A stretch of DNA of 32,298 nucleotides, from NCBI GenBank assembly GCA_020346845.1, contig CP070792.1:2640807-2673104 (forward strand), given 5' to 3'. Under the pieces are notes generated by a model, which was not told the origin of the DNA, ran no database searches, and worked only from the letters and a program-made list of their open reading frames with translations. The position numbers and the translations under genes were made by a program. Shown here piece after piece: positions 11,203 to 13,984 of the stretch. The stretch's first letter is position 1. The number at the start of each line of letters is the position of its first letter. The DNA comes from Gemmatimonadota bacterium. Lineage in GTDB: Bacteria > Gemmatimonadota > Gemmatimonadetes > Gemmatimonadales > GWC2-71-9.

Positions 11203-11439
11203 TCAAGATCCGGCAGCTTCCCCGTCCTTTGATTGGTGAGGGCGATACTCCAACAAATCACCAGGTTGGCAATCGAGTTCGCGGCACAAGGCATCCAACG
11301 TAGAGAACCTCACCGCCCTTGCCTTGTTGGTCTTCAGGATAGAGAGGTTGGCGAGAGTGATGCCAACGCGTTCAGCCAACTCGGTGAGTTGCATCTTTCG
11401 CTTTACCAGCATCAGGTCCAAGTTGACGTAGATGGACAC
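11203..11439 (-). CDS. YozG-like HTH (Xre/Cro) regulator
   Basis: Compact DNA-binding protein of 78 residues in the Cro/CI-like family typified by Bacillus YozG. It begins at a GTG, preferred because the family N-terminus aligns (SIYVNLDLMLVKRKM). The helix-turn-helix spans about residues 17-40 (QLTELAERVGITLANLSILKTNKARAVRF), followed by STLDALCRELDCQPGDLLEY, which is the signature ending. It lies 72 bp after the DUF2975 gene on the same strand; this gene pair is a recurring two-gene module in bacteria. It may autoregulate through the inverted repeat at 12241-12261. The 3' end is 7 bp from the convergent serine hydrolase stop. Confidence 0.9.
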   Translation of the reverse strand: MSIYVNLDLMLVKRKMQLTELAERVGITLANLSILKTNKARAVRFSTLDALCRELDCQPGDLLEYRPHQSKDGEAAGS

Positions 11440-11511: not shown

Positions 11512-12159
11512 TCAGATCGTCAGTGACTTGTCTGCCTCGAGGTGACTACCGTACCCGAAGATCGTGGCCAGCACGAATACCAGGAGTCCGGCCAACACTG
11601 TGTCCTGGCGGATGTCAAACGGAGCCTGGACAGCGATTCCCTGCAGGCTGATCTGCGCCAGCACCGCTCGTGCTACTAAGTACTCGATGATGGGCACCAG
11701 GAACCCAAGGGCTATTAGCGCCGACCCTATAATGCGGATCCGTCCCACATTGGCAGCCGCAAACGGACGCCCTTCGAGCACGGTTGCAAGGATGGCCCGC
11801 ATGAGGTACACGAGATAGAGCACGACCGCGATGCCGAACAACAACACCATATTCGGGAAGAACTGCATCGCCCAGCTGGGAGTTTCAAACCTTAGTTCAC
11901 CGCGGCCGTCGACTATCCGCGGATTGGTGATCCCTCCCGAACTAGGACCGGCTTCATCCAGTGCCATCACGGGCCGCAGCGATCCAGTGCCAATCGCAAC
12001 GGGAATGGCAACGTCTGCCGGGGATTCGTCGCTCGACATGACCAGTGGGGAAACGGCGAGCCAGAGGGTTATGAGACAGGCCGCGACCACCCCGATCACG
12101 AAGACGATGTCCAACCACGTCTTGACCAAACGCGCAGATGTGAGCTTCTGGCCGGGCAT
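11512..12159 (-). CDS. DUF2975 four-helix membrane protein
   Basis: Uncharacterised membrane protein of 215 residues. Four predicted transmembrane segments lie at about 14-37, 97-120, 143-165 and 185-205. The pattern of a first helix, a roughly 60-residue outside loop, a FGIAVVLYLVYLMRAILATVLEGRPFAAANVGRIRIIGSALIALGF-like core and a C-terminal helix matches DUF2975. The RPFAAANVGRIR motif between helices 2 and 3 is the best mark of the family. It almost always precedes a YozG-type HTH gene, as here, suggesting a membrane component that modulates the regulator; this is association, not proven function. A strong promoter lies 69 bp upstream. Confidence 0.85.
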   Translation of the reverse strand: MPGQKLTSARLVKTWLDIVFVIGVVAACLITLWLAVSPLVMSSDESPADVAIPVAIGTGSLRPVMALDEAGPSSGGITNPRIVDGRGELRFETPSWAMQFFPNMVLLFGIAVVLYLVYLMRAILATVLEGRPFAAANVGRIRIIGSALIALGFLVPIIEYLVARAVLAQISLQGIAVQAPFDIRQDTVLAGLLVFVLATIFGYGSHLEADKSLTI

Positions 12160-12227: not shown

Positions 12228-12261
12228 AACATACTGCTATATTTATTGTTTGTCAATAAAT
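12228..12261 (-). promoter_or_regulatory. Promoter and operator of the DUF2975-HTH operon
   Basis: On the minus strand a perfect -35 box TTGACA (12251-12256) is separated by exactly 17 bp from TATGTT (12228-12233, 4 of 6 -10 matches). A perfect inverted repeat ATTTATTG-N5-CAATAAAT (12241-12261) covers the -35 and half the spacer. It is AT-rich, so not a terminator for the upstream antiporter gene. The likely ligand is the HTH protein encoded by this same operon. Confidence 0.65.
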
Positions 12262-12277
12262 TATTATCGATTTACGG

Positions 12278-13984
12278 CTATTGATAGCTGGGTTCCCCGA
12301 GGCCGGACTCGCCGATCCGGCGTCTTTCGGTGGGACGGGATTGGAGGCGCTCCCGCACCTCGGCAGCTATGCTGACACCGACTCTATCCTCCTCGTCGAC
12401 CACGGCGTTGGCTCCGGCCACGTTCAGCTGCCAGCGGTGCACATGATAGCGGGCTCGTACTATCACATAGGTCTCAGGTGCCAGGGCTCGAACGCGCTGC
12501 ACCACCTGGCGAGCGGTTCTTGGATCTGGCAGCGTCACGACAACGGCGGCAGCGGTCCGTACGTGCAGTTTCTCCAGGACCTCCTCCCTGGTTGCATCGC
12601 CGATATAGGTCTTGAGATCATAAGCCAGCGCCTGTTCCGCGGTGTTGGGATTCAACTCGGCGACCAGGATCGTTAGATCGGGTTCTCCCATCATGACTTC
12701 TGCAACCCGTTGGCCGGCGGGGCCGAAACCGATGATCACCAGATGTCGCGCGATACTCTCCGCCGGGGTCTGTTCCTCGCCGGCTGGGCCAGCGGCGACA
12801 CGCCGTTGCGTGGATAGCCTTCCCACCGCCCTAGCGCAGCGTGGCGCGAGTGCGACCAGATAGGGAGTGAGGAACAGTGTTACCACCAACGTGGCTACTA
12901 TGAGGTTGAACAGATGAGTATCGATGAGAAGCCCATCCTGGGCTGTCGACGCCACCACCAGTGAGAACTCGCCGACCTGAGCCAGAACGAAGCCGGTAGC
13001 CAGGGATTGAGTAACAGGCGTGCGGAACAGCCGGGTCACTCCCGACGTAATCAAGGTCTTACCCAGTACGACCGCCGCCACGACAGCCGTGAGCAGCAAC
13101 CAATTGGCGGCTACCCATTCGGGATTGCTCAACATACCTATCGAGCTGAAGAAGAGCGTGACGAACAGCGTTCTCAGCGGGACAATGTCGGCGCGGATCT
13201 GGGTAGCGTAGGGCGATTCTGCGAGCATCATCCCAGCCAAGAAGGCCCCCAGTATCGGGGAGAAGCCCATTGCGTGTGAGATCCACGCGGCTCCCACCGC
13301 GATCGAGATGGCCAGGAGAATCGGTAGATCGCGATTCTGGATGGCCTCGCTGGTACTCAGGAGGAATGGCAGTACGTAGTTGAGCAGCAAGAAGAGACCG
13401 GTGACCAGCACCAGGGCCATGCCAACGGCACGTCCTAGCGCCAGCGCAACATCAGCGGTAGAGCCGCCACCGCTCATGGCCGCGATTACCAACATGATCG
13501 GCACTACTGCAACGTCCTGCAGTAACAGTATCCCGACGGCGTTACGTCCGTGTACCGAGTCGACCTCCGCACGCCTGGCCAGCAGGCGCAGTACGGCTGC
13601 GGTGCTGCTCAAGGCGATCATGGCGCCGACCGCCACAGAGGCCTGCGGGCTCAACCCCAGCAGCAGGCACACTATGGCCGTGAGAATTCCGGTCAGCGCC
13701 ACCTGGAGAGATCCTCCGCCGGCCGCTATCGGCCCGATCGACCGCAGCGTTCGCCACGAGAACTCCAGCCCGATGGTAAAGAGCAACAACGCCACGCCGA
13801 GTTCGGAGATAGCGCCGACCGCGTCATGGCTCGGAAGCAGATCCAGTGCGTTCGGGCCTAGGAGAGTACCCGCCAGCAGGTAACCCAACAGCGGGCTCTG
13901 CTTGAACCGCTCAAACAGCCCACCCAGGACAGTAGCTGCCGCTAGGAGGATCAGTATGTCCAACAGTGCGGGCCAAAGATCCAT
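12278..13984 (-). CDS. KefB-type monovalent cation:proton antiporter (CPA2)
   Basis: Potassium/proton antiporter with 568 residues. Residues 1 to about 385 form the Na_H_exchanger domain with 12-13 hydrophobic helices (LLLAAATVLGGLFERFKQSPLLGYLLAGTLLGP; ELGVALLLFTIGLEFS; GAFLAGMMLAESPYATQIRADI). Residues about 412-535 form a TrkA-N/RCK nucleotide-binding domain with the Rossmann loop G419-FGPAG and the acidic strand end VAELN. A full RCK-C domain is missing; instead there is a short tail ending in Arg/Glu-rich sequence. Kef-type systems acidify the cytoplasm under electrophile stress and CPA2 relatives serve pH/K+ homeostasis; which applies here is not decidable. It stands alone between the DUF2975 operon and the arsenic operon, all leftward. 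Confidence 0.9.
   Translation of the reverse strand: MDLWPALLDILILLAAATVLGGLFERFKQSPLLGYLLAGTLLGPNALDLLPSHDAVGAISELGVALLLFTIGLEFSWRTLRSIGPIAAGGGSLQVALTGILTAIVCLLLGLSPQASVAVGAMIALSSTAAVLRLLARRAEVDSVHGRNAVGILLLQDVAVVPIMLVIAAMSGGGSTADVALALGRAVGMALVLVTGLFLLLNYVLPFLLSTSEAIQNRDLPILLAISIAVGAAWISHAMGFSPILGAFLAGMMLAESPYATQIRADIVPLRTLFVTLFFSSIGMLSNPEWVAANWLLLTAVVAAVVLGKTLITSGVTRLFRTPVTQSLATGFVLAQVGEFSLVVASTAQDGLLIDTHLFNLIVATLVVTLFLTPYLVALAPRCARAVGRLSTQRRVAAGPAGEEQTPAESIARHLVIIGFGPAGQRVAEVMMGEPDLTILVAELNPNTAEQALAYDLKTYIGDATREEVLEKLHVRTAAAVVVTLPDPRTARQVVQRVRALAPETYVIVRARYHVHRWQLNVAGANAVVDEEDRVGVSIAAEVRERLQSRPTERRRIGESGLGEPSYQ

Follow-up and report, generated by a model that had tools for sequence, protein, structure and literature searches.

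A DUF2975 membrane protein encoded beside a small YozG-like regulator of the XRE family forms a widespread gene pair. One described counterpart involves YoaS, a DUF2975 protein. In Table 2 of their survey, Makarova et al. (2009; PMC2701414) counted 32 cases in which a YoaS-like membrane protein is paired with an Xre regulator, and set them aside as non-type II toxin-antitoxin. VanUG, the XRE regulator of the vanG operon, protects positions −70 to −20 over the −35 element, where two imperfect palindromes adjoin each other, and its negative autoregulation was demonstrated by footprinting, RT-qPCR and reporters (PMC4405338). The anti-CRISPR protein AcrIIA1 is tabulated as an HTH_26 protein in PMC9410906; one paper places the regulator of a restriction-modification system in a YozG branch, and another uses the name YozG as an annotation. 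The literature searched, which covered few subscription papers, yielded no function, operator or binding site for the DUF2975-YozG pair; the TTATYG half-site described below has one match in PMC8457756, in a primer.

Genes and Promoter at the Locus

The window analysed here is a stretch of 32,298 nucleotides from a Gemmatimonadota bacterium. On its minus strand, a KefC-like gene (12278–13984) is followed after 118 bp by the gene for a DUF2975 membrane protein of 215 aa (11512–12159; PF11188, 34.5 bits against a cut-off of 27) and by that for the YozG-like XRE regulator, a 78-residue protein with a GTG start (11203–11439). A plus-strand gene for a serine beta-lactamase-like protein (PF00144; 9685–11196) converges on the regulator gene, their ends lying 6 bp apart. 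The regulator matches PF13443 (HTH_26) above the gathering score over residues 6–67 (78 bits, cut-off 22). It is 57–84% identical to 37 chosen relatives of a kind that mostly adjoins DUF2975, and its kinship to YozG, a name taken from the first-pass annotation, was measured against these sequences. Its assignment as VanU (NF000090) was rejected at 29.7 bits against a cut-off of 150, and PADLOC matched it only weakly, by an HTH model, and returned nothing for the DUF2975 protein.

PF11188 is matched (E 0.01) by all 36 proteins of an alignment chosen from profile matches and the window's own order. The AlphaFold model of the DUF2975 protein (pLDDT 88.5) has four long helices, with a beta segment (residues 48–93) between helices 1 and 2, a layout that could permit sensing outside and acting inside. 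Foldseek gave this model no firm PDB match, the best being an AMPA receptor-TARP gamma-2 entry (four-helix, claudin-like; E 0.055), and VIA-align returned helical rows only, which are unspecific. In the alignment (window 11515–12159), DUF2975 proteins share a conserved short C-terminal tail with an LxxExxLTI-like consensus, which may be where the regulator makes contact.

Between the KefC-like gene, which ends at 12278, and the DUF2975 start (12159), the 118-bp gap holds the inverted repeat that the first-pass annotation had described as perfect and as lying over a consensus −35 box with a 17-bp spacer to the −10. All of this is borne out. The repeat, the predicted YozG operator O1, reads ATTTATTG-TTTGT-CAATAAAT at 12241–12261 with mismatch-free arms and scores 29.5 bits with the motif model described below; on the minus strand its core is TTATTG-ACAAA-CAATAA, which fits the operator definition TTATYG-N5-CRATAA upstream of the regulator's operon. 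The −35 hexamer TTGACA (12251–12256, minus strand) lies inside it, 17 bp from the −10 hexamer TATGTT (12228–12233, minus strand), which agrees with the consensus at four of six positions. The span of 12228–12261 originally given thus encloses everything from the −10 through the repeat, while the repeat itself occupies 12241–12261 only. A second, degenerate inverted repeat, O2 (12260–12284, minus strand; 10.7 bits), had been overlooked. Its centre lies 21 bp upstream of that of O1; its right half, CGATAA, is intact, whereas its left half is weak and shares bases with the KefC-like stop codon.

By itself the repeat is weak evidence; its conservation is strong evidence. If up to three mismatches are allowed, the window should contain the exact pattern 0.02 times, and the full repeat occurs perfectly once in the 3.17-Mb single-contig assembly, rated 69% complete. 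Yet perfect inverted repeats of similar size (8-bp arms, loop 0–20) number 15 in the window, where 20 shuffles gave 12.6 (sd 4.6), and one arises in 73 of 2000 shuffles of the gap, with a loop of 5 in 3 of 2000. Because such repeats are not rare in shuffled sequence, the repeat was treated as a mere lead and its conservation was tested.

Conservation of the Repeat Upstream of Related Gene Pairs

Relatives of the DUF2975 protein were found in 11 of 288 genomes of the order. When nine regulator proteins were used to scan genome contigs, at least 580 relatives were confirmed, and the best 80 of them were taken forward. At 78 of these 80 best regulator loci an ORF of at least 90 aa ends near the regulator start (L019 and L083 have none listed), and most of these upstream ORFs are matched, some of them weakly, by a home-made profile of DUF2975. 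The motif set comprised 90 regions, each spanning at most 420 bp about the start of the upstream ORF, from the 80 best regulator loci and 10 of the 11 loci of the order; L007, a DUF2975 fragment near a contig end, was left out. With no prior, the spaced palindromes TTTAT-N9-ATAAA, TATTG-N5-CAATA and TATCG-N5-CGATA were present in 25, 14 and 11 of the 90 regions, against a maximum count of 4 over 20 dinucleotide shuffles. Expectation-maximisation with no palindrome imposed returned WTTATYG-WWWAW-CRATAAR from about 70% of the regions, in the register of the window repeat. The TTATYG-N5-CRATAA core of the proposed target is therefore conserved; the full 8-bp arms are not.

The model trained on all, these loci included, placed a site of at least 18 bits 250–1300 bp upstream of the regulator at 63 of the 80 best regulator loci. 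With this in-sample model and threshold, 80 sites fell in 81 kb of upstream zones and 5 in the other 315 kb, and the reversed model gave none in the same 396 kb against 85 for the forward one. At 14 bits, likewise in-sample, 68 of 80 loci had a site, 7 further sites fell elsewhere and the reversed model gave 2. Two of the five outlying sites (L016 and L043) lie ahead of a choloylglycine-hydrolase-like gene, after which come DUF2975 and then the regulator; these two loci belong to two different candidate phyla. Another two (L019 and L064) precede a regulator that has no upstream DUF2975 match, and the last (L076), just after the regulator, is unexplained.

Models from which the scored group had been held out, with groups assigned from record titles, recovered at 18 bits 14 of 15 Bacillota, 14 of 18 Bacteroidota, 15 of 29 Alphaproteobacteria, 12 of 18 other loci and 5 of 10 of the window's own order; at 14 bits the first two counts were unchanged and the rest rose to 22 of 29, 14 of 18 and 9 of 10. 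Sites elsewhere in the loci appeared only in the group of others (5 at 18 bits), the own order being scanned in upstream regions only. With these held-out models and the reversed-motif controls, the check set by the first-pass annotation, that the repeat should be sought upstream of related pairs, shows it recurring in several phyla. The operator is not universal: 9 of the 80 best regulator loci have no site of at least 14 bits anywhere in the locus.

Among 21 annotated plasmid loci, hand-picked from the 60 listed of 188 records, a site stands at the operon head in 15 (8 of 12 and 7 of 9), 12 of the 21 reach at least 14 bits there, and 6 have none. Sites at L178, L198 and L201 were counted as positive below 14 bits, and the repeat of L203 is imperfect. 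At plasmid loci rich in A+T, the model also gives scores elsewhere (22.2 bits away from the gene in L177; up to 17.8 bits for the reversed model).

Genome-Wide Association with the Regulator

In 395 genomes of the phylum, not selected for the gene, the exact core TTATYGN5CRATAA occurs at 31 places in 25 genomes and its reversed form at 14 places. The regulator is present in 29 of the 395 (E 1e-12), and core and regulator occur together in 12 genomes against 1.8 expected (Fisher p = 6e-9). In 11 of these 12 the site lies 82–807 bp upstream of the regulator, with 12 such sites in total; the 19 core places that are not beside a regulator come near the reversed background of 14. The exact core is lacking in 17 of the 29 regulator-bearing genomes. 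When graded by the model, 23 of 30 regulator loci of the phylum have a site of at least 10 bits, those without being L158 and L169–L174 (L169 and L171 are cut by a contig end; L172–L174 are weak regulator matches).

The strict form WTTATYGW5CRATAAW occurs 26 times in 18 of 30 regulator-holding genomes, its reverse once. Nineteen of these 26 sites adjoin a YozG-like gene, two of these genes being divergent copies, and seven lie at other genes. The divergent regulators (L100 and L114; 77.7 and 79.0 bits versus about 130–145 for the others) have the same operator upstream. Strict copies also precede a DUF6175 gene (L103) and a radical-SAM/B12 gene (L113), the regulator lying elsewhere in the genome, and are unexplained.

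In Hellea, strict sites precede genes for an outer-membrane efflux protein (OEP), an HlyD-type fusion protein and a DUF547 protein in one genome (G313) and a DUF2807 gene in another (G312). Four of these extra sites are 43–57 bp ahead of the genes (L110, L111, L115 and L116), and the fifth, L117, lies close to the end of a contig. Their positions suggest that in Hellea the YozG-like protein governs an envelope or efflux regulon.

In the window's own assembly, with its completeness rating of 69%, the exact core occurs once. The one other place that differs from the full repeat by at most three mismatches is located within a 365-aa ORF, at its 5′ end, and bears no sign of regulation. A regulon in this genome was rejected on these grounds and, since the exact core is single and the only other near-match is within an ORF, the window operator is probably a dedicated local switch there, as far as this assembly extends.

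Predicted Specificity for YozG-Type Regulators

At L019, L064 and L166 the site precedes the YozG gene with no ORF of at least 60 aa between them; the site tracks the YozG-like gene even when no DUF2975 gene intervenes. Ten VanU-like HTH_26 genes, all scoring below the NF000090 cut-off and having another helix sequence, carry no TTATYG repeat within 1300 bp upstream or up to the locus end (best 10.8 bits). Across 38 chosen sequences, residues T28, A30, N31, S33 and K36, where the HTH pattern leads one to expect the recognition helix, are either invariant or conserved to at least 90%. Three Streptomyces proteins (L178, L179 and L201) have ANLA in place of ANLS in this presumed helix, and their operators are perfect CTATCG-N5-CGATAG repeats, not TTATCG; a fourth, with ANVA, has no site. 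The ANLA/CTATCG pairing is suggestive of protein-DNA co-variation within a single clade, and so of one event.

The first-pass annotation had offered the repeat as a DNA target for YozG-like regulators, and the motif's tracking of YozG-like genes across phyla supports it as their predicted site. The operator recurs with the same spacing before the same gene pair in many phyla and is very probably the binding site of the regulator.

Tandem Geometry and Overlap with the −35 Element

A set of 101 sites was assembled, with 71 contributed by the 80 best regulator loci (threshold 14 bits), 22 by the 30 phylum regulator loci (10 bits) and 8 by the first 12 plasmid loci (10 bits). From the phylum part L164 was excluded because it coincides with L063, L158 because it scored too low, and L169–L174 because they show no site. 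In the plasmid part L182 fell below threshold; L177, L183 and L186 were removed by hand, though possibly above it, as their matches are not at the operon head; and L176 was entered with a weaker site (21.9 bits), its operon-head site (29.4 bits) lying beyond 1300 bp. A second inverted repeat stands exactly 21 or 22 bp away at 61 of the 101 sites, and any other spacing between 13 and 40 bp occurs at no more than 4; the remaining 40 have no second repeat at 21 or 22 bp. Five actinobacterial plasmid loci (L184, L198, L199, L200 and L202) have a spacing of 16 bp instead. By its sequence the predicted operator is thus mostly a tandem of two inverted repeats with centres 21–22 bp apart, about two helical turns, and the window operator has this spacing, at 21 bp, with one side weak.

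The overlap with the −35 element, claimed for the window, holds in part elsewhere. In Bacillota the proximal repeat contains a perfect TTGACA at 8 of 17 sites and in Gemmatimonadota at 5 of 22; none of the 26 sites in Alphaproteobacteria and none of the 14 in Bacteroidota does so. Over the 17 Bacillota sites, a TATAAT-like sequence is best placed at a 17-bp spacer.

Proposed Mechanism and Alternatives

We regard it as highly likely that the repeat is the core of the predicted operator of the DUF2975-YozG operon, bound cooperatively by dimers of the regulator, which would repress its own synthesis. Dimers of the 78-residue protein would bind each repeat, and two of them, lined up along the same face of the helix, would do so cooperatively, covering the −35 element and excluding RNA polymerase from the operon. 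Such cooperative repression agrees with a pair of repeats over the −35 that are separated by two helical turns. With lower confidence, the co-transcribed four-helix DUF2975 protein may sense an envelope cue and relieve the repression, for example by holding the regulator at the membrane, a role proposed from gene linkage and topology.

YozG could instead be an activator which, from the tandem repeats, helps RNA polymerase at a weak promoter. The site lies near the −35 and sometimes upstream of it, the window −10 matches at only four positions, and the loci of Alphaproteobacteria and Bacteroidota, where no proximal repeat holds a perfect TTGACA, would allow activation from upstream. But the window and nearly half of the Bacillota sites have a consensus TTGACA under the proximal repeat, in the window at a 17-bp spacer, which would need no activator and would be covered, and VanUG, a characterised XRE relative, is a repressor; we therefore consider activation unlikely. 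That another regulator common to these loci binds the repeat is more doubtful still. The seven strict sites at other genes in regulator-holding genomes would suit it, but the other 19 adjoin a YozG-like gene, and the site follows genes of this type across phyla and is kept where no DUF2975 gene intervenes.

The repeat begins 17 bp past the end of the KefC-like gene (12278), where a terminator or RNA hairpin might be looked for. The stem, however, is A+T-rich and has no U tract, no terminator was found at the locus, the predicted RNA folding is unremarkable against shuffles (z −0.98) with a best fold that leaves this stem unused, and the repeat recurs at many other loci; this reading, rejected on the fold and the terminator search, has next to nothing to recommend it. 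Chance is just as implausible, for although A+T-rich repeats of this size are common in the window and its shuffles, the comparisons refute an accidental origin for one conserved with fixed geometry.

On the preferred reading, self-repression by YozG dimers, a specific operator with fixed geometry makes the pair directly testable and the genome-wide prediction of targets feasible. The near-fixed code across phyla may help studies of protein-DNA co-evolution, as in the ANLA/CTATCG case. Tentatively, YozG-DUF2975 might be a self-contained, horizontally mobile membrane-sensing switch that keeps this code across phyla and that certain lineages have connected to an envelope-defence regulon; the connection is proposed because strict operator copies precede the OEP, HlyD, DUF547 and DUF2807 genes of Hellea.

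Comparison with Known Systems

The proposed logic resembles that of the SdpRI-type switch, in which an autorepressor is paired with a membrane antirepressor, in that one operon encodes both a membrane protein and a small repressor that binds DNA. The protein families differ, SdpR being of the ArsR type and SdpI coming from another membrane family. The N-terminal domain of AcrIIA1 mediates self-repression; AcrIIA1 differs in being a phage anti-CRISPR protein of 149 aa, and we know of no DUF2975 partner for it. The YoaS-like and Xre pairs are alike as gene pairs, the available part of that survey giving no operator or mechanism (PMC2701414). VanUG differs in its partner, vanU being co-transcribed with a two-component system and the window regulator with DUF2975. 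The likeness to VanUG is one of geometry: in both cases a small XRE regulator is associated with paired, adjacent inverted repeats over the −35 element (PMC4405338).
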